64,000 nucleotides of DNA from Serratia grimesii NBRC 13537 (GTDB taxonomy: Bacteria; Pseudomonadota; Gammaproteobacteria; Enterobacterales; Enterobacteriaceae). Shown here piece after piece: positions 27,721 through 41,993 of this stretch. The DNA lies in contig NZ_BCTT01000010.1 of assembly GCF_001590905.1 (NCBI RefSeq), positions 124,001 to 188,000 of the forward strand, read 5' to 3'. The first letter of the stretch is position 1. Every line of letters begins with the position of its first letter. Position numbers and translations under genes: made by a program. The notes below the pieces were generated by a model that was not told the DNA's origin, did no database searches, and saw only the letters and a list, made by a program, of their open reading frames with translations.

Positions 27721-29340
27721 ATGTCTTCAATCGCTATTACCCCACAAACACTGGCCCGTTACGGCATCCATCAGGCTACCGAAATCGTCCATAACCCAAG
27801 CTACGAGCAACTCTTCACTGAGGAAACCCGTGCCGACCTGCCGGCACTGGAACGCGGTACGCTAACAACATTAGGTGCGGTCAACGTCGATACCGGCGAG
27901 TTCACTGGCCGTTCACCGAAGGATAAATACATCGTGCGTGACGACACTACGCGCGATACCGTCTGGTGGTCCGACAACGGCACCGGTAAAAATGACAACC
28001 AACCGCTGTCGCCAGAAATCTGGCAACATCTGAAAACGCTGGTAGGTAACCAACTTTCCGGAAAACGTCTGTTTGTTGTGGACGCGTTCTGCGGTGCCAA
28101 TGCCGATACCCGGCTGAAGGTACGCTTCATCACCGAAGTGGCCTGGCAGGCACACTTTGTCAAAAACATGTTTATTCGCCCAACCGACGAAGAACTGCAA
28201 AATTTTGAACCGGATTTCGTGGTTATGAACGGGGCCAAATGCACCAACCCGGACTGGCAACAGCAAGGGATGCACTCGGAGAACTTCGTTACCTTTAACC
28301 TGACCGAGCGCATGCAGTTGATCGGCGGCACCTGGTACGGCGGCGAAATGAAAAAAGGGTTGTTCTCGATCATGAACTACCTGTTGCCACTGCAGGGCAT
28401 CGCGTCAATGCACTGTTCCGCTAACGTGGGTGAACAGGGGGACGTTGCCGTATTCTTTGGCCTGTCCGGCACCGGTAAAACCACCCTTTCCACCGATCCG
28501 AAACGTCAGTTAATCGGCGATGACGAACATGGCTGGGATGACGATGGCGTGTTTAACTTTGAAGGTGGCTGCTACGCCAAGACCATCAAGCTGTCTCAAC
28601 AGGCAGAGCCTGAGATCTACCAGGCGATCCGCCGTAACGCGCTGTTAGAAAACGTGCAGGTATTGGCCGATGGCAGCATTGATTTCGATGATGCCAGCAA
28701 AACCGAAAACACCCGTGTGTCTTACCCGATTGACCACATCGAAAACATCGTCAAACCCGTGTCTAAAGCAGGCCATGCGAAGAAAATCATCTTCCTGACT
28801 GCGGATGCTTTCGGGGTGTTGCCACCGGTGTCACGCCTGACACCGGAACAAACCCAGTATCACTTCCTGTCCGGTTTCACTGCCAAGCTGGCGGGGACTG
28901 AACGTGGGATCACCACGCCAACCCCAACCTTCTCTGCCTGTTTCGGTGCAGCCTTCCTGACACTGCACCCGACGCAGTATGCCGAAGTGCTGGTTAAACG
29001 CATGGAAGCCGCCGGTGCGCAGGCCTATTTAGTCAATACCGGCTGGAACGGCAGCGGCAAGCGTATTTCTATTAAAGACACACGCGGCATCATCGACGCT
29101 ATTTTGAACGGTGAGATAGAACACGCCGAGACCTTCACCTTGCCGATCTTTGGCCTTGCGGTTCCGACAGCATTGCCGGGCGTTGATCCTTCGATCCTCG
29201 ATCCGCGCAAAACCTACGCTGACGAATCACTGTGGCAGGAGAAAGCGCAGGATCTGGCACAGCGCTTTATCGATAACTTCGCAAAATACACCGTAACACC
29301 GGCGGGTGAAAAGCTGGTGGGCGCTGGCCCTAAACTGTAA
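27721..29340 (+). CDS. pckA: Phosphoenolpyruvate carboxykinase (ATP)
   Basis: 539 residues; converts oxaloacetate to phosphoenolpyruvate using ATP, the first step of gluconeogenesis. The kinase-1a P-loop [15 protein letters not shown], the kinase-2 region [20 protein letters not shown] and the oxaloacetate-binding Arg in [10 protein letters not shown] are all present. The length is that of E. coli PckA (540). Monocistronic, with a strong terminator after it. Confidence 0.97.
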
Positions 29341-29395
29341 GACTGCAAGGACACAATAGTGCCTGGTGGTTTAATGGCAAGGGGTGCTGCATGCT

Positions 29396-29419
29396 GAGGG
29401 GCCAATAGGCCCCTTTTTT
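29396..29419 (+). terminator. Rho-independent terminator of pckA
   Basis: AGGGGCC / GGCCCCT stem with an AATA loop followed by TTTTTT. It touches the stop codon of the convergent gene on the other strand. Confidence 0.92.
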
Positions 29420-30668
29420 ACGCCAATTGCTTATCCAAATTAATCAATGCTTGCGCCAATACCCTGGCGCCGTCCGCCAACTGTTGCTCGGTAATCGATT
29501 CTTCAGGACAATGACTACGCCCGTTCACGCAGGGAATAAACACCATTCCCACCGGCCCGGTCGGTGCCATGTAAACGGCGTCATGCCCGGCTCCGCTAGG
29601 CAGACGGCGACTGGCCAACCCGAGTGATTGTGCCGCATTATCAATCGCCTGCATTACCGTTTCCGCGCAGGCGGTAGGACGTGCTCGGCTAACGTGCTGT
29701 AATTCCGCCTGCAAACCCAATGTCTGTAACCGCGCAAGACAATTCTCCCGTAGCACTTCAGGAAAGCTATCCAATACTTGCTGACTGTCGCTCCGGACTT
29801 CAAGCATCAACTCCACCCGCCCCGGTACTGCGTTGGGTACATTAGGCGTCATGGCGATACGGCCCACGGTCGCCACCACATAATGTGGGTTTCCGCTCTG
29901 TCGCGATGCCGCGGCATCGGCCTGTTCGATAACATGCGCAGCACCGACCAACGCATCGCGCCGAATATCCATAGGCGTAGTACCAGAGTGATCCGGCTGC
30001 CCAATCACCGTCACCAATACCCGTCGAATGCCGACAATATGCGTCACAACACCTATTGGCAGTTGTTGACGCTCCAGTACGGGACCCTGTTCTATATGCA
30101 ATTCAATATAAGCGGCGGTGCCTCCAGGCAAGCGCAACGGTTGGGTCAGTTTTTCAGGCTGGGCACCAATGCGCGTCATGGCCTCCGCCAGAGTTTCACC
30201 CTGTGCATTCTTCGCCGCCAGCATGTCGCTGTCCAACTCACCGCTGAGCGCCCGGCTACCAACGCAAGAAATGCCATAATCACTCGGCTCCTCGGACAGA
30301 AAGTCGATCACCTCAAACGGATGCTGCAAAGCAATTGCCTGTTGGTGCAGACAATGGGCTATTTCAATCCCCGCCAATACACCGATGATGCCGTCATAGC
30401 GCCCGCCGCCAACCACGGTATCGCAATGCGATCCCGTGACGATTGGCGCCAAATCATTGCGTAACCCAGCACGACGTCCAATCAGATTGCCCCCCTCATC
30501 CAGCGTCACTGTCAGTCCGGCCAGCTGCATTTGCTCAGCAAGCCAGATGCGCGCCTCACTGAACAGAGGTGTAAAGGCACGCCGTGTCCAAGGTACGTCC
30601 GGCAGCGTCATTTGTGCCAGATGATTGACCCGTGCCCATAAGCGTTCACTATTGATTAACTCTGTCAT
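29418..30668 (-). CDS. M20-family N-carbamoyl amino acid amidohydrolase, probable N-carbamoyl-L-glutamate hydrolase
   Basis: 416 residues of the allantoate amidohydrolase / L-carbamoylase branch of peptidase family M20. Metal ligands sit in GSHCDTV, GGRYDGIIGV, SEEPSDYG, ELHIEQGPVLE and the C-terminal GRSHCPEE. The family cleaves N-carbamoyl groups to amino acid, CO2 and ammonia. Its start overlaps the stop of the upstream cyclic amidohydrolase by four bases (ATGA), so they are coupled. With the plus-strand group it would carry out the last step of an ergothioneine-to-glutamate pathway; the specificity for carbamoylglutamate is inferred from context. Confidence 0.8.
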   Translation of the reverse strand: MTELINSERLWARVNHLAQMTLPDVPWTRRAFTPLFSEARIWLAEQMQLAGLTVTLDEGGNLIGRRAGLRNDLAPIVTGSHCDTVVGGGRYDGIIGVLAGIEIAHCLHQQAIALQHPFEVIDFLSEEPSDYGISCVGSRALSGELDSDMLAAKNAQGETLAEAMTRIGAQPEKLTQPLRLPGGTAAYIELHIEQGPVLERQQLPIGVVTHIVGIRRVLVTVIGQPDHSGTTPMDIRRDALVGAAHVIEQADAAASRQSGNPHYVVATVGRIAMTPNVPNAVPGRVELMLEVRSDSQQVLDSFPEVLRENCLARLQTLGLQAELQHVSRARPTACAETVMQAIDNAAQSLGLASRRLPSGAGHDAVYMAPTGPVGMVFIPCVNGRSHCPEESITEQQLADGARVLAQALINLDKQLA

Positions 30669-32044
30669 TGGTTTTCTCCTCTGGCAATGTGCGGACGCAG
30701 GAACTGGCCCGTCCCCGGCGTGTTAACAATATGCCCATCGGCGAAAACCGCCTGCCCGCGGCAATAGGTTGTTTCTACCCGCACGCTAAATTCCATGCCC
30801 TCGAAAGCGCTCCATTTGACTGCAGACAGGCTGTGAGCCGGGTCAAATCGATAATGTTCCGGCCGCAGGATGACAAAGTCAGCGTCCATGCCGGAGCTAA
30901 ACGCCCCTTTGCGATCGTCTAGAAGGAAATGGCGAGCAGGATTGCGACACAACAGCTGTGCCACGGTCGTCGGTGCGATGCCGTGTTGCTCACAACCCGT
31001 CCACAGTGCGGGCAGTAAGGTCTCCAACCCGGGTCCTCCGGACGCGTTTTTGAACACGTTGGTATCCCCTTTCCGCTCCAGCCCCCAACTAACGTGGTCG
31101 GACGAAACGAAAGTACAATCGCCCTGCGCAATATGACTCCACAGTAGCTCCGTTTCTGCTTTTGGGCGGATCGGTGGGTAATGCTTGGTTTTGGCACCAA
31201 ACTGGCGCGTATGCTGTTCGTGATTAAGCATCAGGTACTGGACGCACGTTTCAATACTGACGGGATATCCGGCCTGCCGATACATCCGGTACAGCTCGAA
31301 ACCGCGTGACGTGGAAACATGCACCGCATGGGCGCGAGCACCACTTTCTGCCCCCATCTCATAAATCAGTGCCGTTGCCAGATTTTCAATCAAGGGCGTA
31401 TGGGCACGCATAAAAGCATCCCAGCCGGTATCACCATTGTCGATCATCCGTTGAATATTCTTACGCGTTAGCTCCTGCATTTGGTTATGTACCGCGCAGG
31501 CCAGCCCGGTGGGCGCAATCAACTGAAAAGCGTGCATCAGGTCATCTTCATCTACTCGAGGGAAGCGCCCCGGCGTGGCCTCAAAAGTAGAGAATTTAAA
31601 GGCACATACGCCACCTTCGATCAGACCCGCGGCAGCGTCAAAACCATAGGTCGCATTAAGAGTGCCAAACAAGGCTACGTCGACATGGCAGTCACGCTCG
31701 ACCTCGGCAATCTTAGCATCCAACAGTGCGCGGCAAGCCACCGGCTCGGGATCGTCATAGGGCATATCAACCATCACCGTGATACCGCCAGCCGCCGCCG
31801 CACGCGATGCCCATCCCAGCCCTTCCTGATTAGCCTGACTGCCAGAATGCACCTGACCGTCAATCACGCCGGGCAAGATCCACTTACCGCTGGCATCAAT
31901 GACCTTGTGTGCCTCAGGAGCCGGTCCACTGCCGCTACCTATGATTTTACCGCCGGCGATCGCCAGCCAACCGTCAGGTGTCACCCGTTCGGCATCCACC
32001 AAATTGCCCTTTACCACCAGCTCTGGTCGTTGATTCAAATTCAT
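30665..32044 (-). CDS. Cyclic amidohydrolase (hydantoinase/dihydroorotase superfamily), probable hydantoin-5-propionate hydrolase
   Basis: 459-residue TIM-barrel amidohydrolase. Candidate metal ligands are Lys150 (CAFKFSTFEA), His186 (AVHNQMQE), His242 (HVSTSRG) and Asp316 (SSDHVSW), at spacings very like those of D-hydantoinases. The first ligand motif, normally HxH, reads DGQVHS (62-67), so Gln64 replaces the first His. The neighbour N-carbamoyl hydrolase and the plus-strand group point to ring opening of hydantoin-5-propionate to N-carbamoylglutamate. The substrate is inferred; a dihydropyrimidinase- or allantoinase-like role is the alternative. Confidence 0.75.
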   Translation of the reverse strand: MNLNQRPELVVKGNLVDAERVTPDGWLAIAGGKIIGSGSGPAPEAHKVIDASGKWILPGVIDGQVHSGSQANQEGLGWASRAAAAGGITVMVDMPYDDPEPVACRALLDAKIAEVERDCHVDVALFGTLNATYGFDAAAGLIEGGVCAFKFSTFEATPGRFPRVDEDDLMHAFQLIAPTGLACAVHNQMQELTRKNIQRMIDNGDTGWDAFMRAHTPLIENLATALIYEMGAESGARAHAVHVSTSRGFELYRMYRQAGYPVSIETCVQYLMLNHEQHTRQFGAKTKHYPPIRPKAETELLWSHIAQGDCTFVSSDHVSWGLERKGDTNVFKNASGGPGLETLLPALWTGCEQHGIAPTTVAQLLCRNPARHFLLDDRKGAFSSGMDADFVILRPEHYRFDPAHSLSAVKWSAFEGMEFSVRVETTYCRGQAVFADGHIVNTPGTGQFLRPHIARGENQ

Positions 32045-32180
32045 AACGCTCCCCCCTTATTACATTACACCTCATACGATAAGTGCATAAAAATGCACAT
32101 ATCTCAGGTTATCAATCGACCAGTTGTGCCGATACCAAGGCCAGTGTAGGGTGAGGCTATCTATTCTGTCTTATGCTTGT

Positions 32181-32211
32181 TTATCACTCATGCATAACAA
32201 AATGTTAACCA
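32181..32211 (+). promoter_or_regulatory. 31-bp LysR-type operator, copy 1
   Basis: TTATCAC-N7-TAACAAAATGTTAACCA. The palindromic core TAACA-AAA-TGTTA (32195-32207) is a T-N11-A LysR box. It ends 13 bp before the LysR start codon and lies 136 bp from the cyclic amidohydrolase start, with its TTATCAC end towards that gene. Copy 2 is at 33190-33220. Confidence 0.72.
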
Positions 32212-32224
32212 CTCTGGAGGACGT

Positions 32225-33121
32225 GTGCGTTTAAACCTCAAGCAAATCGAAGTGTTCCGCGCCATCATGTTGACCGGCTCGATCAGCGGTGCCGCAAAAC
32301 TGCTACACGTTTCTCAACCAGCAGTTTCACGGCTCATCGCCTATACCGAACAACGGTTAGGCCTGACGTTGTTTGAGCGCATCAAGGGGCGTCTGTACCC
32401 AACACCAGAAGCACGTCACCTGTTTGTCGAAGTCAACTCGGTGTATCAAGGGGTACAGCGGGTCAACGAAGTGGCTGAAGATTTGATACAAAACCGCATG
32501 GGGCACCTGCGCATAGCCTGTAGCCCAAGTTTGGGGCAAGGTCTTATCCCCAGTGCCATCGCCAAGTTTCATGCACAACTGCCTGAAGCTCGGGTAATTC
32601 TGCACACCATGATCCCGGATGTGCTCTTGCAAGCGGTACTAACACAACAGGTTGAGTTGGGTGTCGCCTTTCTGCATGAAGGTCATCCCAACGTTCATTC
32701 GCGCCAATTGTACGAGAACCGGTTAGTGGTGGCGTTACCCGCCTCTCATCCATTGACAGCTAAAAATGTGATTAGCATCGAAGATTTAATCGATCAACCC
32801 TTTATTGGCTACGGTGCCGACATCCCTATCGGCCAGCTGGTACGCAAACTGTTGAACGATGCAGACATTCTTCTGAGGCCCACCGTCGAGGTGCAACAGA
32901 TCCACGTTGCCTGCGCACTGGTACAAGCCGGGGTGGGCATAGCCTTGATCGACGAAATCACCGCCAACGGACCGGTATGGACCAAGGTGGTTTTTCGGCC
33001 GATAGAACCCACCGCAAACACCCCCATCAGTATCGTGCATGGGATGTACGAACCGCTGTCCCGCTTGGCTCAAGCATTTATCCAAACGCTGGAATCGGTG
33101 CAGATCCACTGGTCGCGTTAA
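32225..33121 (+). CDS. LysR-family regulator of the flanking catabolic genes
   Basis: 298 residues. The N-terminal winged helix (IEVFRAIMLTGSISGAAKLL, HVSQPAVSRLIAYTEQRLGL) is followed by a LysR substrate-binding domain from about residue 90. The start is GTG 32225 after a strong GGAGG. It lies between two divergent gene groups, and the same 31-bp T-N11-A element precedes both, so it very likely activates both arms and controls itself. The effector is not known; ergothioneine or thiourocanate would be the natural candidate. Confidence 0.85.
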   Translation: MRLNLKQIEVFRAIMLTGSISGAAKLLHVSQPAVSRLIAYTEQRLGLTLFERIKGRLYPTPEARHLFVEVNSVYQGVQRVNEVAEDLIQNRMGHLRIACSPSLGQGLIPSAIAKFHAQLPEARVILHTMIPDVLLQAVLTQQVELGVAFLHEGHPNVHSRQLYENRLVVALPASHPLTAKNVISIEDLIDQPFIGYGADIPIGQLVRKLLNDADILLRPTVEVQQIHVACALVQAGVGIALIDEITANGPVWTKVVFRPIEPTANTPISIVHGMYEPLSRLAQAFIQTLESVQIHWSR

Positions 33122-33189
33122 GCCATTTTCCCGCCCTCCCTCTTGCCGCCATCTTTCATGATTGCGGCATATTATTCCCCGCATGCCAT

Positions 33190-33220
33190 TGGTTAACATT
33201 TTGTTATATGCAGGTGATAA
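33190..33220 (-). promoter_or_regulatory. 31-bp LysR-type operator, copy 2
   Basis: Read on the minus strand: TTATCAC-N7-TAACAAAATGTTAACCA, identical to copy 1 in 24 conserved positions and in length. The core is at 33194-33206. It lies 114 bp upstream of the DUF917 start, again with the TTATCAC end towards the catabolic operon. Confidence 0.72.
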
Positions 33221-33334
33221 AAAGTAATGCGACATTTTGGTTATCTGCCCCCTAGTATCGAATTCCGGTAGCGCAACTATTCACAGATTATTCATTCAAG
33301 CGCAATCTCACCGATACTTTCAGGAGCACAGACC

Positions 33335-34426
33335 ATGGGGCGTGTTTTAACACTTGATGATGTAGAAGCCGCAGTAAAAGGCGGCTCGGTATTTGCCTGC
33401 GGCGGCGGTGGCTGGGTTGCACACGGCCTGGAGCTGGGGCGGTTGGCCGTGACGATTGGCCGACCAGAGTTGGTCACTCTTGATGAGTTGGCTGATGATG
33501 CTTGGATCGCCACCGCCGCGGCAATTGGCGCTCCCGGCGGCCTGACCGATTGGCAGATGCTGGGTGTCGACTACGTCAAGGCGGTTCAACTGGTACAACA
33601 GGAATTGGGCGCCCCTATTGCGGGATTGATGGTCGGTCAAAATGGCATGTCCAGTACCCTCAACGGCTGGTTGCCGGCGGCAATTCTGGGCTGCAAGGTC
33701 GTTGATGCCGTCGGCGATCTGCGCGCTCATCCAACCGGTGATATGGGTTCAATAGGCCTGGCCTCCAGTCCGCAACCAATGATTCAGGCCGCCGTCGGTG
33801 GTAACCGTACACAGAATGCTTATATCGAGTTAGTCGTGAAAGGTGCTACCGCCAAGGTATCGCCAGTGCTGCGTAAAGCGGCCGACATGTCGGGGGGATT
33901 TATCGCCAGTTGCCGCAACCCGATTCCGGCCGCCTATGTACGTCAACATGCAGCGCTGGGCGGTATCAGCCAGGCGATCTCATTAGGTGAAAGTATTCTG
34001 AAGGCACGGGGCAGTCATGTTGTTGATGCGATCTGCCGCCATACCGGTGGCCAAATTATCGGCAGCGGTGTCGTTACCGACAACAGTTTACGCTATACCG
34101 ACGAGGCGTTTGACGTCGGCATTGTGACGATCGGTCAGGGCAATGGGCTACGCCGTATCCACGTCATGAATGAACATATGGCTGTAGAAGATGCGCACGG
34201 TGAGCGAATTGCCAGCTATCCGGACGTCATCACCACGCTGGATATCAACGGTAACCCGATCAGCGCTGGACAATTGAAACCCGGAATGGACGTCGTAATT
34301 TTCCATATGCATCACTCTCAGTTCCCGCTCTCGTCGTCGGTTACTGATCCTGCGGTCTATCCCCCGGTGGAAAAAACGCTGGGTATCGATCTACGCAGTT
34401 ACCTGCCTACAGGAGATGCCGCATGA
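33335..34426 (+). CDS. DUF917 (S-methyl-thiohydantoin desulfurase-like) protein
   Basis: 363 residues of the DUF917 family, now associated with thiohydantoin desulfuration. Visible family features are GGSVFACGGGGWVAHG near residue 17, the Gly/Asn-rich GQNGMSSTLNGW, and DAVGDLRAHPTGDMGSIGL. In the proposed pathway it removes sulfur from the 2-thiohydantoin made by the next enzyme, giving hydantoin-5-propionate. First gene of a four-gene plus-strand group; it overlaps the urocanase-like gene by four bases (ATGA). The function is inferred from family naming and neighbours. A ribosome binding site CAGGAGC precedes ATG 33335. Confidence 0.78.
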   Translation: MGRVLTLDDVEAAVKGGSVFACGGGGWVAHGLELGRLAVTIGRPELVTLDELADDAWIATAAAIGAPGGLTDWQMLGVDYVKAVQLVQQELGAPIAGLMVGQNGMSSTLNGWLPAAILGCKVVDAVGDLRAHPTGDMGSIGLASSPQPMIQAAVGGNRTQNAYIELVVKGATAKVSPVLRKAADMSGGFIASCRNPIPAAYVRQHAALGGISQAISLGESILKARGSHVVDAICRHTGGQIIGSGVVTDNSLRYTDEAFDVGIVTIGQGNGLRRIHVMNEHMAVEDAHGERIASYPDVITTLDINGNPISAGQLKPGMDVVIFHMHHSQFPLSSSVTDPAVYPPVEKTLGIDLRSYLPTGDAA

Positions 34427-36081
34427 AAAGAACCTTTGGGGTGACCTCCGGCACCACGTTACGCTGCCGCGGATGGCGGCAAGAGGCCCTGCTGCGCCTG
34501 ATGGAGAATGTGTTGGCAGTAGGTGAGAATCCGGATGAACTGGTGGTATATGCCGCTCTTGGCCGGGCTGCACGTGACTGGCCATCTCACGATGCCATTG
34601 TTCACGCACTGAAAACCATGCGCGAAGACCAGACGTTGTTGGTGCAGTCCGGCAAACCAATCGGCTTGTTGCAAACCCACGCTAATGCACCGTTGGTGAT
34701 CATGGCCAATTGCAATATGGTCGGCCAATGGGCGAAAGCAGAAAACTTCTACCGTTGGGAAAAAGAGAATCTGATCTGCTGGGGAGGACTGACCGCCGGC
34801 GACTGGCAATATATTGGTTCGCAGGGTGTGATCCAGGGTACCTATGAAATCTTCTCGCGCATTGCCGAACGGCATTTTGACAACGATCTACGTGGGCGTT
34901 TTATTCTTACCGCCGGGTTGGGTGGCATGGGCGGCGCCCAACCACTGGCAGGCACCCTGGCCAATGCCGCGATTCTGACCATCGAAGTCAATCAAGCCAG
35001 CATCGACAAACGGCTAAAAAATGGTTTTCTTCAGCATCAAGCAGCAGATCTCAACCAGGCACTGACGATGATCGCTGCCGCTCAGCAGCGCAAAGAAGCG
35101 CTTTCTGTCGCCCTGCTAGGTAATGCCGCCGAGGTCTACCCGGCGATTCTGGCCCGTGGCGTAATCCCGGATATCGTCACCGACCAAACAGCAGCGCATG
35201 ACCTGGTATACGGCTATGTCCCTGCCGGGTATAGCCTCGATCACGTCGTGGCACAGCGCGAAAAAGACATCAATGCCCTGATGGAAGCCAGTCGCCGTTC
35301 TATCGTTCAGCACGTACAGGCCATGCTCGGTTTTATGGATCGCGGAGCGGTAGTGTTCGACAACGGCAATCTTATACGCACTCACGCCCATCAGGGCGGT
35401 GTTGAGCGTGCATTCGAGATCCCTATTTTCACCGAAGCCTTCCTGCGTCCGCTGTTTTGCCGTGCCATCGGTCCATTCCGCTGGATAGCCCTGTCCAATA
35501 ATAGCGATGACATTCGTGTGATTGACGACTATCTGCTGCAACGCTTCGCCGACAATCGCATCGTCAGTAATTGGATCGCCCTGGCACGTCAGCATGTTCC
35601 GTTCGAGGGCTTACCGGCACGCATCGCTTGGCTCGGCCACGGTGAACGCACCGAACTGGCGCTAGAGGTGAACCGTATGGTGGCGGACGGTCGTTTGTCC
35701 GGCCCAATCGCCTTCACACGCGATCATCTCGATGCCGGTGCAATGACACACCCCAATATCATGACTGAAAAGATGAAGGACGGCTCCGATGCGATCGCCG
35801 ACTGGCCACTGCTGAATGCCTTGGTCAACTGCGCCTCCATGGCAGATCTGGTGGCTATCCACTCCGGTGGCGGCGGTTACAGCGGTTATATGACCAGTTC
35901 TGGTATCACCACCGTTGCTGACGGCAGCGACGCGGCGGCCCAACGCCTGCAGCTGTCGATGACCAACGACACCAGCACGGGCGTGATGCGCTACGCCGAC
36001 GCCGGTTATCAAGAGTCACTGGACGAGATTGCTGAAAAATCCCTGCCGTATATCTCACTGCCTCGTGGAGAAGAACGATGA
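34423..36081 (+). CDS. Urocanase-like hydratase lacking the urocanase active-site Cys, probable thiourocanate hydratase
   Basis: 552 residues, homologous over its length to urocanate hydratase (HutU). The NAD-binding loop LTAGLGGMGGAQPL is at about 162-175, with LLVQSGKP, YIGSQGVIQGTYE and DQTAAHD. Urocanases carry an active-site Cys in GLPARICW (Cys410 in the Pseudomonas enzyme); here the motif reads GLPARIAW with Ala402. Other changed sites are WGGLTAGDWQY for YGQMTAGSWIY and DNGNLIR for DYGNNIR. These changes, together with the DUF917 neighbour, fit hydration of thiourocanate rather than urocanate. It should not be named hutU without test. Confidence 0.8.
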   Translation: MKRTFGVTSGTTLRCRGWRQEALLRLMENVLAVGENPDELVVYAALGRAARDWPSHDAIVHALKTMREDQTLLVQSGKPIGLLQTHANAPLVIMANCNMVGQWAKAENFYRWEKENLICWGGLTAGDWQYIGSQGVIQGTYEIFSRIAERHFDNDLRGRFILTAGLGGMGGAQPLAGTLANAAILTIEVNQASIDKRLKNGFLQHQAADLNQALTMIAAAQQRKEALSVALLGNAAEVYPAILARGVIPDIVTDQTAAHDLVYGYVPAGYSLDHVVAQREKDINALMEASRRSIVQHVQAMLGFMDRGAVVFDNGNLIRTHAHQGGVERAFEIPIFTEAFLRPLFCRAIGPFRWIALSNNSDDIRVIDDYLLQRFADNRIVSNWIALARQHVPFEGLPARIAWLGHGERTELALEVNRMVADGRLSGPIAFTRDHLDAGAMTHPNIMTEKMKDGSDAIADWPLLNALVNCASMADLVAIHSGGGGYSGYMTSSGITTVADGSDAAAQRLQLSMTNDTSTGVMRYADAGYQESLDEIAEKSLPYISLPRGEER

Positions 36082-37421
36082 ATAAAAGCACGGCTCCATC
36101 AATATCTCCGCTGTTGGCCACAGACGCCAGTGTTACGCCACGCAAAAAAAGCAGTGGCCGCAAAGCGATTGCCGCCGCCTCTGTCGGCAATGCGCTGGAG
36201 TGGTATGACTTCTCGGTATACGCTTTTTTTGCGGTATATATCGCGCAGAATTTCTTTCACCCGAACGATCCCGGTACTCAATTGTTCGAAGCCTTTCTGG
36301 CCTTCGGTCTCGGGTTTGTCATTCGCCCACTCGGTGCATTGGTGATCGGCGCTTATGGCGATAGGGTCGGCCGCAAGGCCGCTCTGACGCTGACTATCAT
36401 GACCATGGCCGTCGGTACCGCAATCATTGCCTTTGCACCGCCCTACAGCGCCATTGGTATCGGCGCACCACTGCTGATCCTGTGTGGTCGAGTGCTACAG
36501 GGTTTTTCTGCGGGCGGTGAAGTTGGTGGTGCAGCGGCCTTTTTGATCGAACATGCCCCCGCGAATCAAAAGGGCCAATACGCTTCATGGCTACAGGCCA
36601 GCATGGGGATATCCAATATCCTCGGCGCACTGGTGGCAACGGCCGTCACGCTGACACTCAGCCACGAGCAAGTGGGCGACTGGGGCTGGCGCATCCCATT
36701 CATCATCGGTCTATCAATCGCACCGATCGGTTTATGGATGCGTAAAACGCTGGAAGAGACGCCCCTGTTCGCGGAGGAACAGGCGCGACGACTGCAAGAA
36801 AAACGTGCACCAGAGATGCCGTTGCGATTGTTATTCCGTACCCATCGCCATGCAGTCCTGCTGGGGACCGGGCTGTCAATCCTATGGGCCGTGAGTATCT
36901 ATGCGCTGATTATTTATATGCCGATTTACGTCCAGCGCGTCCTGCACTTCGAAAGCCACCAGGCGTTTCTGGCAGCGCTGATCGGCAACTGCTTTATGGT
37001 GGTGTGCTGCGTAGCGGCCGGTGCCTGGTCAGACCGGATAGGGACGCTGAAGATCTTACAGGCCGGGGCCGCACTATTGCTGGTCGCCAGCTACCCATTA
37101 TTGCTGCTGCTGGATGCCTATCACACCACAGCGATGCTGATATTGGTGCAAACACTGTTTTGCGTACTGGTGTCATTGTTCGTCGGCGTGGCACCTGCGG
37201 CGTTATCAGACCTCTTTCCTACCGAAGTTCGTGCCAGCGGCATGTCAGTCTCTTATAACCTGGCTGTCACCGTGTTCGGTGGTTTTGCCCCAGCAATCCT
37301 CACTTGGTTGACCCAGAATACCGGTACCCGTTTCGCACCGGCCTGGTACGTGATGATCGCCAGCATATTGGCACTGATCACCCTGTATTTGATCGCCCGT
37401 CGTCCACAACGACAATCCTGA
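36078..37421 (+). CDS. MHS-family metabolite:H+ symporter
   Basis: 447-residue major facilitator of the metabolite:H+ symporter family, with twelve hydrophobic segments. Family marks are VGNALEWYDFSVYAFFAVYIA in helix 1, GAYGDRVGRKAAL in the loop between helices 2 and 3, RVLQGFSAGGEVGGAAAFL in helix 4 and LFPTEVRASGMSVSYN in the second half. It overlaps the urocanase-like gene by four bases, so it belongs to the same operon. It probably imports ergothioneine or the acid thiourocanate; the substrate is inferred from context. Confidence 0.85.
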   Translation: MNKSTAPSISPLLATDASVTPRKKSSGRKAIAAASVGNALEWYDFSVYAFFAVYIAQNFFHPNDPGTQLFEAFLAFGLGFVIRPLGALVIGAYGDRVGRKAALTLTIMTMAVGTAIIAFAPPYSAIGIGAPLLILCGRVLQGFSAGGEVGGAAAFLIEHAPANQKGQYASWLQASMGISNILGALVATAVTLTLSHEQVGDWGWRIPFIIGLSIAPIGLWMRKTLEETPLFAEEQARRLQEKRAPEMPLRLLFRTHRHAVLLGTGLSILWAVSIYALIIYMPIYVQRVLHFESHQAFLAALIGNCFMVVCCVAAGAWSDRIGTLKILQAGAALLLVASYPLLLLLDAYHTTAMLILVQTLFCVLVSLFVGVAPAALSDLFPTEVRASGMSVSYNLAVTVFGGFAPAILTWLTQNTGTRFAPAWYVMIASILALITLYLIARRPQRQS

Positions 37422-37473
37422 GCCAGGTCGCGATTACAACATCATAAAAATCAATAATAAGGGTCTATTCATC

Positions 37474-39120
37474 ATGCCAGGAAAATTTACCTTATCGCTG
37501 CTGGTCGTGCTCACGCTCGGCTACAGCCAATACGGGTTAACCACCGTAACCCTTGACGGTCACTCTCTCACTCCGCAGATTGTCGCCAGCGTCGCAGATG
37601 GTGAAGAGGTTACCCTCGCTCCAGCAGCAAGAGAGCGAGTGACATTGTCACATAAAGTATTAATAGAAGCTGCGCAGAGCGGGCTAAAAATTTATGGGTT
37701 AACAGTCGGTGTAGGGCTGAACAAAGACCGCCCTATGGTCGACGTGCACGGCAAGCTAACGCAAGAAGTGGTAGACGCATCAAAAAAATTTAACGTCGGC
37801 CTGTTGCATGCCCACTCTGGCGGTATAGGTAACCCCATGAGCATTCGTGTCGCTCGGGCGACCATGGTCACCCGCCTCAACGCCCTGTTGAGCGGTGGCG
37901 GTGGCGTTCAGCCAGCGATTGTCGACGCCTATGTCGCCTTCCTGAATAAAGGCATCACACCCGTCATCCCCGCAGAGGGTTCGGTGGGTGAAGGCGACAT
38001 TACAGTCATTAGCCATGTCGGATTGGCGATGCTCGGCGAAGGTGACGTATATTATCAAGGCAAAAAGGTAGCAGCCAAAACCGCATTGCAAAGCAGCCAA
38101 ACGCCCCCCATTGATCCCTATGCCAAAGACGCATTATCGATCCTCAGCTCCAATGCTTACTCTGCCGCCAGCGGCGCATTGGCATTAGATTCGTTGTCCC
38201 ATCTGATGCAAGTCAATACCTTGACCTATGCACTCAGCTTGCAAGCGCTAAATGGCAACGTATCCCCTTTCCTCGCCAATACTCTGGCATTGCGTCCTTA
38301 TCCCGAAGTGGCCGCCATGGGGAAAAACCTGCGTGAACTGCTGACAGGTTCTAGCCTATGGCAACACGACGACAGCCGTCCCTTGCAGGATCCGCTTAGC
38401 TTCCGCTCAGGTGTCTATTTGTTGGGGGAACTTCAACACAGCTACCAACAGGCTTACGATCAGTTGCTGGTGCAGTTGAACAGTTCTGACGACAACCCGG
38501 GTGTTGCGCTCAACGTGACCGCGCCGTCACAGCGACCACAAGAAGCCGTCGGTTACGTCAGTGAAGGAGACCTGAAGGGGGCCGTGCTCCCCAGTGCTAA
38601 CTTTGAGCCTCTGCCGTGGGTGTTGGCCTTCGAACAATTAGGGTTAGCATTGGCACACAACTCGCTGGCCAGCGCACAACAGGTGGTCAAACTGAATAAC
38701 CCTGCATTTACTGGCCTGACACGTTTTCTCGGCACCGACCACACGGTGCATGCCTTTGGCGCAATGGAAAAACCGGTCATGATGCTGGCAATGCGCAACA
38801 AAGAGCTGGCAATGCCAGTGTCACTCGATTACTTCCCGGTAGCCGGTGATATCGAAGACATCGCCACCAATGCCCCATCGGTGGTTGAGCGCGTTCAGCA
38901 GCAAGTGGATAACAGCTATCAATTGCTGGGAATCCTGCTTGTTCACGACGCTCAGGCCGTGGATTTACGCCAGCAACGTCACAACGGTTTTATGCTCTCT
39001 GCACCTACCGAGGCACTCTACGCTGCAGTACGTAAGCAGGTCCCCTTTATTGAGACAGATCGCCCGCTGGCACCCGATTTTGCGGCCGCCGAGCAAGTAC
39101 TACGTCAATACGGTAAATAA
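37474..39120 (+). CDS. Histidine-ammonia-lyase-like protein without MIO triad, probable ergothionase
   Basis: 548 residues, aromatic ammonia-lyase fold. Conserved features are Tyr74 (YGLTVGVG, the catalytic Tyr loop), His114 (AHSGGIGNPM) and the SSDDNPGV segment. The loop that forms the MIO cofactor, normally GSVGASGDLAPL, reads GSVGEGDITVI (169-179), one residue shorter and without Ala-Ser-Gly, so MIO cannot form. Ergothionases are HAL relatives that lack MIO and eliminate trimethylamine from ergothioneine. The first 22 residues (MPGKFTLSLLVVLTLGYS) look like a signal peptide, unusual for this fold. Last gene of the operon, 52 bp after the symporter. Confidence 0.78.
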   Translation: MPGKFTLSLLVVLTLGYSQYGLTTVTLDGHSLTPQIVASVADGEEVTLAPAARERVTLSHKVLIEAAQSGLKIYGLTVGVGLNKDRPMVDVHGKLTQEVVDASKKFNVGLLHAHSGGIGNPMSIRVARATMVTRLNALLSGGGGVQPAIVDAYVAFLNKGITPVIPAEGSVGEGDITVISHVGLAMLGEGDVYYQGKKVAAKTALQSSQTPPIDPYAKDALSILSSNAYSAASGALALDSLSHLMQVNTLTYALSLQALNGNVSPFLANTLALRPYPEVAAMGKNLRELLTGSSLWQHDDSRPLQDPLSFRSGVYLLGELQHSYQQAYDQLLVQLNSSDDNPGVALNVTAPSQRPQEAVGYVSEGDLKGAVLPSANFEPLPWVLAFEQLGLALAHNSLASAQQVVKLNNPAFTGLTRFLGTDHTVHAFGAMEKPVMMLAMRNKELAMPVSLDYFPVAGDIEDIATNAPSVVERVQQQVDNSYQLLGILLVHDAQAVDLRQQRHNGFMLSAPTEALYAAVRKQVPFIETDRPLAPDFAAAEQVLRQYGK

Positions 39121-39140
39121 GGCAGTACGCCCCCCCTCAC

Positions 39141-39797
39141 TCAGGACACTGGCAACGGTGCCCTGAGCAATCTAGGCAATAACATCGCCACCGCAGCCGC
39201 AATGCGATCATCAATTTCACTGCCCGGTGGCAACAGACCAAGTGCCATTTGCCGCAACGGCTCCGCCATGACCATCGCCAGTAGCAGATCACTGGTTTGT
39301 ATGCATTCCAGCTCACGTAGCCAGCCACGCCGCTGTTGGCGTTGCAACCAATCAGCCACAATAGCCCGACCGCGCTCAATGCCGTTGCGCTGGTAGATAA
39401 CCAACAACGCTTCCCGGCCCGGGAACTCGCCCTGCAACAGACGAAACATGCCCACTGCCTGTGCGCTCAGGACCTGTCGTGCAATCGCTCGTAGGCCCTG
39501 CTCCAGCAGCTGCGGCAGTTCTGCCGCCTGTAGTGCATCTTGTTCGAACACCGGCAGAAAAGCGTCCGGCCAGCTTGCTATCGCCTGCATCACCAGTGCC
39601 TCTCGGTTTTCAGCAAAGCGATACAGGGTTTTTTTGGCCATGCCCGCCTGTTTTGCCACCGCGTCCACGGTGGTGGCTGCATAGCCCTGTGTCAGTAATA
39701 ATGTCAGGGTAGCGTCCACCACAGCGGCATGCAGCTCGCTTTCCGGGGTCGCTGGCCTTCCGCGTGAGCGCGATTGTGTCTCCATTTCATTTGCCAT
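39141..39797 (-). CDS. TetR-family repressor next to a PhlG-like gene
   Basis: 218 residues with the N-terminal TetR helix-turn-helix (AVVDATLTLLLTQGYAATTV and DAVAKQAGMAKKTLYRF, about 27-63), then a C-terminal ligand domain of the TetR_C AefR-like type. ATG 39797 follows AGAGGAA at good spacing. It is divergent from the PhlG-like gene, and a perfect 13-bp-arm palindrome lies between them, so it most likely represses both. Pseudomonas PhlG is similarly under TetR-family control (PhlF/PhlH), but no close match to those was established. Confidence 0.85.
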   Translation of the reverse strand: MANEMETQSRSRGRPATPESELHAAVVDATLTLLLTQGYAATTVDAVAKQAGMAKKTLYRFAENREALVMQAIASWPDAFLPVFEQDALQAAELPQLLEQGLRAIARQVLSAQAVGMFRLLQGEFPGREALLVIYQRNGIERGRAIVADWLQRQQRRGWLRELECIQTSDLLLAMVMAEPLRQMALGLLPPGSEIDDRIAAAVAMLLPRLLRAPLPVS

Positions 39798-39843
39798 GAT
39801 TATTCCTCTACAACGTTGACAGAGCTAGCATACCGGCATAGTC

Positions 39844-39876
39844 TTATTTTGGAAACAAATATGGTTTCCAAAATAA
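39844..39876. promoter_or_regulatory. TetR-type operator palindrome
   Basis: TTATTTTGGAAAC (39844-39856) and its exact reverse complement GTTTCCAAAATAA (39864-39876), with a 7-bp spacer. It lies 14 bp upstream of the PhlG-like start and 46 bp upstream of the TetR start. Confidence 0.8.
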
Positions 39877-39890
39877 AAAGGATGACCGTT

Positions 39891-40589
39891 ATGACACATC
39901 AATCGCTGGTGCTCCCTTGGGGCGTTAATGATATCAATGCGTTGCTTAAACCGGAACCACTGCGCCTGGAGATGGGCCTGACACGTAGCACGGATGGTTT
40001 GTTGACCGTAGCTATTCGTACCGACCTGCACGGTTGCAAGGGCCGGATGCTGGAGTGGTGGTTTACCTTTTTTGAAACCACACAACACATACGTTGGTGG
40101 CATCCGCACGATCACGTCGAGCATCGTGGCTGGGACTCGCACTGGAAAAAAGGTGAAAGCTATGTCGGTGCCAGCATCGATGCGGTAGAGTGGCTGGCGG
40201 AAATGCCACCAACACCGGCCCGACTGAAGTTTCATGCTGCTGAAGACTTCTTTGCTGTACACCCCTTGCAGCAGGCACGCGAAACCCAGGCGTTATCTGC
40301 TGCGATTTGCGCCCGTATCGGTTTTGGTGAACAGGTAGCACTGGACGATAACGGTGACCCTCTCGATGGAGAAATGCTGCACCTGGTACGGGATACCTCT
40401 TATGGTTGCGTGCTGCGCAGCCGCTTCCTGCTGGGGAAATCCTGTACCAATGCTCATGACGAATTACCGGATGAGATCGGTTTTAACCTGATGCGCCATT
40501 GCTACAATGAATTCAGCTATCTGGCTCAATTCCTACCCTCTTTGTATTACGCTGAAAACGGCCGAGAGGCAGCCCCCTTACCGTGGTGA
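39891..40589 (+). CDS. PhlG-like hydrolase (2,4-diacetylphloroglucinol hydrolase family)
   Basis: 232 residues of the DAPG hydrolase (PhlG) family, zinc enzymes that cut a C-C bond in acylated phloroglucinols. The His-rich segment IRWWHPHDHVEHRGWD (67-82) and a C-terminal HxxxE zinc pair (His203, Glu207 in RHCYNEFSYL) are present. PhlG of Pseudomonas is longer (about 290). ATG 39891 is placed 8 bases after AAGGA; earlier in-frame ATGs at 39861 and 39882 lie in the operator or the ribosome binding site. The natural substrate is unknown; detoxification of a Pseudomonas-type antibiotic is one possibility. Confidence 0.78.
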   Translation: MTHQSLVLPWGVNDINALLKPEPLRLEMGLTRSTDGLLTVAIRTDLHGCKGRMLEWWFTFFETTQHIRWWHPHDHVEHRGWDSHWKKGESYVGASIDAVEWLAEMPPTPARLKFHAAEDFFAVHPLQQARETQALSAAICARIGFGEQVALDDNGDPLDGEMLHLVRDTSYGCVLRSRFLLGKSCTNAHDELPDEIGFNLMRHCYNEFSYLAQFLPSLYYAENGREAAPLPW

Positions 40590-40676: not shown

Positions 40677-41993
40677 ATGGGGATGGGCACACAAACAACG
40701 GTGATTGACGCGCGCCAGTCGCGTCAGGCGTTGCTGGCCGGATCGGTCGGCAACTTTATCGAATGGTATGAATTCGGCGTTTACGGCTTTCTCGCTACCG
40801 TGATCGCCGCCAATTTTTTCACCCTACAGGGTGAAAGTGAAATCACCAGCCTGATCCTCACCTATGCCGCCTTTGCGCTGGCCTTTTTCTGTCGCCCGAT
40901 TGGTGCGGTGATCTTCGGCCGCATTGGCGATCGTATTGGCCGCAGACCAACGTTAATTGCAGTATTACTGCTGATGACGGTGGCCACTGCGTTGATTGGC
41001 GTGATGCCAACTTACGCCTCCATCGGTGTCGCCGCCCCACTGCTGCTGACTCTGTTACGTATGTTTCAGGGGCTGTTTGCCGGCGGTGAGTTTGGCGGCG
41101 CAGTGTCGCTCATGACCGAGTTTGCGCCGAAAGGTAAACGTGGCCTGTTCGGTGCCTGGCAATCATTGACCGTAGCGTTCGGGCTGTTGGCCGGTGCCGG
41201 TTTAGTGGCACTGTTGGCCGCATTATTAACGACGGAACAATTGCATGACTGGGGTTGGCGTATTCCCTTCCTGCTGGCACTGCCGATGGGCGCGGTGGCA
41301 TTGTGGCTGCGGTTGAAACTGCAGGAAACACCCACATTTACCCTGGCACAGCAAACCCGTAGCTCAACGACGCAGCCACCGGCGGTAAAACTGAGCGGCG
41401 TAGCAAAAACCATTGCTCTGGGTATTGGCCGTATGATGGGATGGTCGGCCGCCGGTTACACCTTCCTGGTCGTCATGCCGTCTTACCTGCAAACCTCGCT
41501 GCACGCCACCTTCCAGCAGGCACTGGTCGCCACCGTGCTGGCCAACATCGGTTTCGCTCTGACCATTCTGCCCGCCGGTATCCTCAGCGATAAGCTGGGA
41601 CGCAAAACAGTGATGCTGACGGCAGTGGTGACGGTTATTCTGTTTACCTTCCCGCTGCTGCACCTGTTGCAGGACCCACACAGTTCACTGCTGACCAAAG
41701 GCATCGCGGTAATGATCGCCGGTGCAGTCGTCGGCCTACTGGCTGGCCCCGGTCCCGCTATGCTGGCAGAAATGTTCCCAACGCAGGTGCGTTATACCGG
41801 TCTGGGGCTGGCCTATTCGCTATCCAATGCCGTGTTTTCCGGCTCCGCGGGGTTAATCATCACCGGCCTTATTAAACAGACCGGCAATCTTGACATCCCC
41901 GCTTACTATGTGGTCGCTACCTCGGTTGTCAGCCTGTTCGCGCTGATGACCCTCCGGCGCGACGATCATCTGCGTTCACTTAACGAACGTTAA
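40677..41993 (+). CDS. MHS-family metabolite:H+ symporter
   Basis: 438-residue major facilitator with the family marks VGNFIEWYEFGVYGF, FGRIGDRIGRRPTL, RMFQGLFAGGEFGGAVSLM and MFPTQVRYTGLGLAYSLSNA. It is a paralogue of the symporter in the LysR cluster but clearly distinct. ATG 40683 is an alternative start. It lies 87 bp after the PhlG-like gene on the same strand and may be co-transcribed with it; the substrate is not known. Confidence 0.85.
   Translation: MGMGTQTTVIDARQSRQALLAGSVGNFIEWYEFGVYGFLATVIAANFFTLQGESEITSLILTYAAFALAFFCRPIGAVIFGRIGDRIGRRPTLIAVLLLMTVATALIGVMPTYASIGVAAPLLLTLLRMFQGLFAGGEFGGAVSLMTEFAPKGKRGLFGAWQSLTVAFGLLAGAGLVALLAALLTTEQLHDWGWRIPFLLALPMGAVALWLRLKLQETPTFTLAQQTRSSTTQPPAVKLSGVAKTIALGIGRMMGWSAAGYTFLVVMPSYLQTSLHATFQQALVATVLANIGFALTILPAGILSDKLGRKTVMLTAVVTVILFTFPLLHLLQDPHSSLLTKGIAVMIAGAVVGLLAGPGPAMLAEMFPTQVRYTGLGLAYSLSNAVFSGSAGLIITGLIKQTGNLDIPAYYVVATSVVSLFALMTLRRDDHLRSLNER

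Follow-up and report, generated by a model that had tools for sequence, protein, structure and literature searches.

A Serratia grimesii gene cluster for ergothioneine catabolism with a probably periplasmic first step

Gene content of the Ert locus

The DNA analyzed here, which we call the window, is a stretch of 64,000 nucleotides from Serratia grimesii NBRC 13537. Between positions 29418 and 39120 it encodes five enzymes of ergothioneine catabolism together with a LysR-type regulator and a symporter of the MHS family. The seven genes had been proposed in an earlier sequence-only reading, and all of them are open frames at the coordinates below with concordant Pfam domains. In window coordinates the features are:

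29418..30668, minus strand: ErtE, N-carbamoyl-L-glutamate hydrolase (M20); NF058540, 635.5 bits, cut-off 520
30665..32044, minus strand: ErtD, hydantoin-5-propionate amidohydrolase (hydantoinase-type); NF058538, 666.5 bits, cut-off 600
32194..32208, minus strand: operator candidate, copy 1, TTAACATTTTGTTAT, before ertD; exact match, one of two genome sites
32225..33121, plus strand: LysR-type regulator; Pfam HTH_1 and LysR_substrate
33193..33207, plus strand: operator candidate, copy 2, TTAACATTTTGTTAT, before ertC; exact match, one of two genome sites
33335..34426, plus strand: ErtC, thiohydantoin desulfurase (DUF917-type; Pfam S-Me-THD-like); NF058529, 597.7 bits, cut-off 440
34423..36081, plus strand: ErtB, thiourocanate hydratase (urocanase-like); NF058530, 1014.5 bits, cut-off 930
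36078..37421, plus strand: MHS-family symporter, proposed thiourocanate importer; best general model TIGR00883, below cut-off
37474..39120, plus strand: ErtA, MIO-less HAL-like ergothionase; nearest to the Treponema denticola ergothionase
37474..37545, plus strand: predicted signal sequence of ErtA, first 24 codons, called from relatives and a signal rule; rest of the protein without cysteine

Two divergent gene groups lie around a single LysR gene, as the sequence-only reading had described. Neighboring frames overlap by 4 bases at ertD/ertE, ertC/ertB and ertB/symporter, and these overlaps suggest two operons, ertD-ertE running leftward and ertC-ertB-symporter-ertA running rightward, with lysR between them. 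A scan for promoters and terminators gave counts under the shuffle means. On one side of the cluster is pckA (27721-29340), one of two copies in the genome, the second of which is 76% identical and lies on contig C19. The adjoining block on the other side (39774-40589 and 40677-41993) holds genes for a PhlG-like hydrolase, a TetR protein and a second MHS symporter; the hydrolase matches Pfam DAPG_hydrolase with a score far under the NCBI PhlG cut-off.

The palindrome before ertD and ertC was unmentioned in the sequence-only reading. The pattern TTAACATNNTGTTAT occurs exactly twice in the whole 5.07-Mb genome, both times at the Ert intergenic places. Its core, TAACA...GTTA, is present at both places in 15 of 15 aligned rows, which are the window and 14 of the 24 complete loci described below, each aligned over its two intergenic regions. 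Allowing one mismatch gave 8 further genome places, and a reversed control pattern gave 1. With up to two mismatches the window holds 2 matches, which is not above shuffled sequence (mean 1.17; 36 of 100 shuffles reach 2). The case for an operator rests on the exact matches and on conservation, which make the twin palindrome a good candidate for the LysR operator.

Enzyme families and predicted substrate

Compared with the known enzymes of the pathway, ErtB, ErtC, ErtD and ErtE all pass curated NCBIfam models, with scores above cut-off and far beyond chance. ErtA has the HAL fold, and its nearest relative, both in sequence and in fold, is the T. denticola ergothionase (PDB 6s7j). The proposed five-step gene set from ergothioneine to glutamate is thus borne out, for four families by curated models and for ErtA by kinship to ergothionase. 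The bacterial Ert pathway is already known, and the Serratia locus is a new carrier of it.

ErtA lacks the Ala-Ser-Gly MIO tripeptide. Its GSVGE-GDI aligns with GSVGASGDL of the genome's own HutH, in agreement with its earlier description as HAL-like without MIO, and the HutH model TIGR01225 scores 257 against a cut-off of 539. The best homologs, from S. proteamaculans and S. quinivorans, are 91% identical, with 96% for a further one in Serratia sp. PL17. Judging from the partner enzymes, the substrate of ErtA would be ergothioneine. Two proteins (P0085 and P0090) have N-termini that resemble the start of ErtC joined to ErtA, which may reflect gene fusion, decay of ertC or a misplaced start.

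The urocanase-like protein had been noted for its changed residues. We found 57 columns that set ErtB apart from true HutU, each with a residue that at least 94% of 36 relatives share and that differs in 6 of 6 true HutU, which agree on another (6 of 10 HutU loci were used, 4 being dropped for a wrong frame). S-methylergothioneine, previously left as a possible substrate, is disfavored since both models of its pathway (NF058531 and NF058532) fall below cut-off: the S-methyl hydratase model gives 738.3 on ErtB against 880 (thio model 1014.5; HutU model 686.8), and the S-methyl desulfurase model gives 282.6 on ErtC against 450 (thio model 597.7). On these scores we rejected it as the main substrate. 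We also rejected a plain hut paralog, given the model scores and the genome's own hutU and hutH, which are on another contig. The expectation that annotation would call two of the genes hutU and hutH is partly out of date, four of the five enzymes now having curated NCBI models; homologs of ErtA still carry source names such as 'histidine ammonia-lyase', 'HAL/PAL/TAL family ammonia-lyase' or similar.

A second HAL paralog without the MIO tripeptide (GSVGYLTHMAHV) lies in the hut region of the same genome (L131:9877-11400; contig C7 near 73.9 kb), after ABC-transporter genes that include one for an OpuAC-type binding protein. Its best solved relatives are HALs, and it is possibly a lyase that acts on hercynine or another methylated histidine.

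Signal sequence and cysteine content of ErtA

The HAL-like frame begins with MPGKFTLSLLVVLTLGYSQYGLTT ahead of the domain, which reads as a signal sequence for Sec export and had been passed over in the sequence-only reading. We rejected a wrong start codon as its origin because AAGGG lies 10 bases ahead of the start ATG and the stretch recurs in ErtA relatives from many phyla. An in-frame GTG further inside ErtA is without an obvious ribosome site. At the end of the signal, the Serratia copy has Thr at the likely cleavage site where most close relatives have Ala, and therefore cleavage of this ErtA may be altered.

Signal sequences were called with a simple home-made rule that also fires on 10 of the 36 long ORFs of the window, membrane proteins probably included. 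Among the best 120 of 1424 reported ErtA homologs, 106 pass the rule; the 14 that fail are fragments, have doubtful or shifted starts, or are near misses. We also assembled 79 loci with an ErtA relative from the best 80 of 132 matched stretches in named genomes. Over these loci a signal sequence was called in 54 of 78 callable ErtA proteins versus 0 of 141 ErtB, ErtC, ErtD and ErtE proteins (4 of 82 ErtA and 3 partner proteins were left out as cut).

Because the signal rule also fires on other window ORFs, we sought a second mark in cysteine content, which tends to be low in the proteins that such bacteria export. Mature ErtA has 0–2 cysteines in 55 of 55 exported rows versus 3–10 in 24 of 24 unexported rows, a split that rests on three hand corrections (L090 to unexported, L061 and L069 to exported). 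The hydrophobic part of L090 runs into the domain and L061 has a clear signal sequence with one Glu, both being judged by eye. L069, from Candidimonas, has 0 cysteines and no signal by the rule; a signal-like start then turned up on looking further upstream. Its reset was prompted by the cysteine count and followed by a check of the DNA, before which there was one unexported row with 0 cysteines, so the clean split owes one row to it. The cysteine mark thus made one correct prediction. Signal status is uncalled for L070, L072 and L097, and L078, exported by the rule, was kept out of the tree and the cysteine count for its length. Per 100 residues, ErtA of loci with an MHS symporter has 0.02 cysteines, and the partner enzymes have 0.98–1.87.

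The link between export and Gram type has exceptions. No signal sequence was found in the Treponema ergothionase, Providencia or Anammoxibacter although these are Gram-negative or diderm. In Providencia the cysteine mark is seen in reverse, its ErtA, whose long branch falls within a group of exported relatives, having 10 cysteines. In two Comamonas clusters (L045 and L081), ErtA forms a separate deep lineage that is exported too. On the ErtA tree, which was made by a quick method with no bootstrap and has long branches including that of Providencia, the signal and cysteine traits change three times each, and the 2 independent pairs that agree do not suffice for significance. A comparison of signal status with the kind of transporter likewise gives only 2 independent pairs and no significance. 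Export signal, cysteine number and kind of transporter are all confounded with ancestry and Gram type. As a prediction from sequence, ErtA export is well supported, the evidence on its location being comparative throughout. An exported ergothionase was not found in the literature searched, outside which the central enzyme papers lay, and thiourocanate was not linked with the periplasm there. The available text of PMC4621440 mentions both ergothionase and periplasmic, in unrelated passages.

Transporters and other neighbors of ertA

The MHS symporter scores 388.8 on TIGR00883 (cut-off 443.45), 349.4 on TcuC (445) and 303.4 on ProP (544), none of which is over cut-off. Given the signal sequence and the cysteine-free mature part of ErtA, the first step probably takes place in the periplasm, which would leave thiourocanate as the cargo of the symporter. 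The substrate class, the five steps and the single LysR gene of the sequence-only reading are supported by sequence, but its uptake of ergothioneine by the symporter is unsupported as written.

ErtA is exported in 27 of 27 loci with an MHS symporter, and none of these has an OpuAC or BCCT gene within the stretch examined. Where an OpuAC-type or BCCT gene lies within ~10 kb, ErtA is unexported (17 of 17 rows: 16 Bacillota and the Planctomycetota Anammoxibacter, L084). No row mixes MHS with betaine-type importers, and the tested neighbors are absent from 22 exported and 6 unexported rows. EgtU, an ergothioneine transporter protein, is described as resembling binding proteins for betaine and choline in the available text of PMC9732360. 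A porin gene is present in 22 of the 79 loci, all read as Burkholderiales from their titles.

An FAD_binding_2-type flavoprotein is encoded near exported ErtA in Campylobacter (L059 and L060), Citrobacter (L066), Turicimonas (L068) and Ferrimonas (L076). In L060, L066, L068 and L076 there is a twin-arginine motif at the start of the flavoprotein or of its first piece, the frame in L060 being in two pieces. L060, L066 and L076 also encode a cytochrome c3 protein, L059 and L068 having been examined in part. These flavoproteins, which we take to resemble urocanate or fumarate reductases, possibly reduce thiourocanate in the periplasm, which would amount to thiourocanate respiration. The literature search gave no title on thiourocanic acid as an electron acceptor.

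In Burkholderia sp. L27 (L073:1596-11581) an exported ErtA relative is accompanied by HutU, HutI, HutF and an MFS carrier. The hydratase there gives 940 bits with the HutU model (cut-off 375) and 671 with the thiourocanate model (cut-off 930). This locus points to a lyase in the periplasm that supplies urocanate, with hercynine perhaps as its substrate. In L043, L086, L089, L091, L095, L099 and L100, five of which are anaerobic-type Bacillota, ertA has a molybdenum hydroxylase-like gene nearby; Pfam was run on L043 alone.

Distribution

Of the 79 loci (from the best 80 of 132 stretches), 24, all Gram-negative, have LysR and MHS genes along with the five Ert genes. The gene order is that of the window in 23 of the 24, and ertA is reversed in L064 (Pseudorhodoferax). 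Complete clusters include those of Serratia, Raoultella, Pseudomonas gingeri, Burkholderia, Paraburkholderia, Caballeronia, Trinickia, Pseudorhodoferax and Comamonas. Eight further loci, all Bacillota, have the five Ert genes and no LysR or MHS relatives.

Among 99 genomes, 30 of them of the same genus, the hydratase model was over cut-off in 8, all Serratia and including the window's own. In 6 of 6 Serratia genomes examined that do not have the block, pckA is retained and no part of 29341-39165 aligns; in L122, 69 bases lie between the parts matching window positions 29340 and 39166. In L120 (genome G011), ~7.4 kb of other DNA separates pckA from the Ert block. None of 5426 complete Escherichia coli genomes has a place covering 80% of window 33335-37320 (ertC-ertB-symporter, with ertA outside the query), and 11 of them have a short HutU match. 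In its available text, a 2026 paper judged ergothionase to be restricted to few genera and noted that divergent homologues fell outside its coverage (PMC13405746).

Discussion

We consider it probable that the locus is one Gram-negative ergothioneine module spread over two compartments, with ErtA in the periplasm and the MHS symporter importing thiourocanate. Exported ErtA would split ergothioneine into trimethylamine and thiourocanate, and the symporter would carry the latter into the cytoplasm. There ErtB would add water to thiourocanate, ErtC would take off the sulfur as sulfide, ErtD would open the hydantoin ring and ErtE would yield CO2, ammonia and glutamate. LysR would act on the palindrome common to both operons in their presumed induction.

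All five steps might instead be cytoplasmic, with the symporter importing ergothioneine and the ErtA N-terminus being uncleaved or a misannotated extension. The characterized Treponema enzyme is without such an extension, the MHS family includes betaine carriers (ProP is the second-best specific model for the symporter) and the Serratia ErtA has a weak cleavage site. However, we regard this arrangement as unlikely because the N-terminal stretch recurs across many phyla behind a start that, in Serratia, has AAGGG 10 bases upstream, the loss of cysteine would be left unexplained, and Gram-positive clusters that need ergothioneine import use OpuAC or BCCT systems.

ErtA could also be exported while other products, or ergothioneine as well, are taken up, the symporter carrying for instance a carboxylate and thiourocanate taking another route. 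The best specific model, although below cut-off, is that of the tricarballylate carrier TcuC, and 22 exported rows have no tested transporter or reductase nearby. The symporter gene, however, shares 4 bases with ertB, stands before ertA and is present in 24 of 24 complete Gram-negative loci, and we think such a division very unlikely. It seems highly improbable that the true substrate is a relative such as hercynine, S-methylergothioneine or ergothioneine sulfonate. Hercynine is suggested for the Burkholderia L073 locus by its HutU, HutI and HutF, and a sulfonate pathway is cited in the available text of PMC13405746, but the Serratia ErtB and ErtC are over the thio-model cut-offs and under the S-methyl ones, and a thiohydantoin desulfurase would presumably be unneeded for hercynine or the sulfonate.

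More broadly, we lean toward the idea that many Gram-negatives degrade ergothioneine outside the cytoplasm, with an onward route specific to the lineage, and that Gram-positives import it intact through betaine-type transporters and cut it inside. In Serratia, Raoultella, P. gingeri and Burkholderiales, thiourocanate would enter the ErtB-ErtE route by MHS import. In Campylobacter, Citrobacter, Ferrimonas and perhaps Turicimonas, it would be reduced in place by an exported flavoprotein as an electron sink, a route that appears paired with c-type cytochromes in the cases examined.

Ergothioneine is a mushroom compound and dietary antioxidant, and bacteria that break it down are one source of trimethylamine. 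If ErtA is periplasmic, no ergothioneine importer is needed, trimethylamine is formed outside the cytoplasm and neighboring cells could receive leaked thiourocanate. It would then be wrong to recognize degraders by an ergothioneine transporter, and an exported, cysteine-poor, MIO-less lyase would be a better marker.

A five-step bacterial ergothioneine catabolism has reportedly been reconstituted in vitro, and all five of its enzyme families are also found in the Serratia block, four by curated model. Histidine utilization draws on the same enzyme superfamilies, with HutH and HutU corresponding to ErtA and ErtB; by contrast, the Ert block is without the MIO tripeptide, HutI and HutF, and its hydratase is of the thiourocanate type. 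As a comparison, Bacillota Ert clusters have an unexported ErtA and OpuAC or BCCT importers, whereas the Serratia ErtA has a predicted signal sequence and the importer is of the MHS family. The T. denticola ergothionase, in its PDB sequence (6s7j), lacks a signal sequence and contains 8 cysteines (residues 5-484), compared with 0 in the mature Serratia ErtA. Judging from the Burkholderia loci, the ergothionase of Burkholderia sp. HME13 (BAM63550) probably belongs to the same clade as ErtA and may itself be exported.
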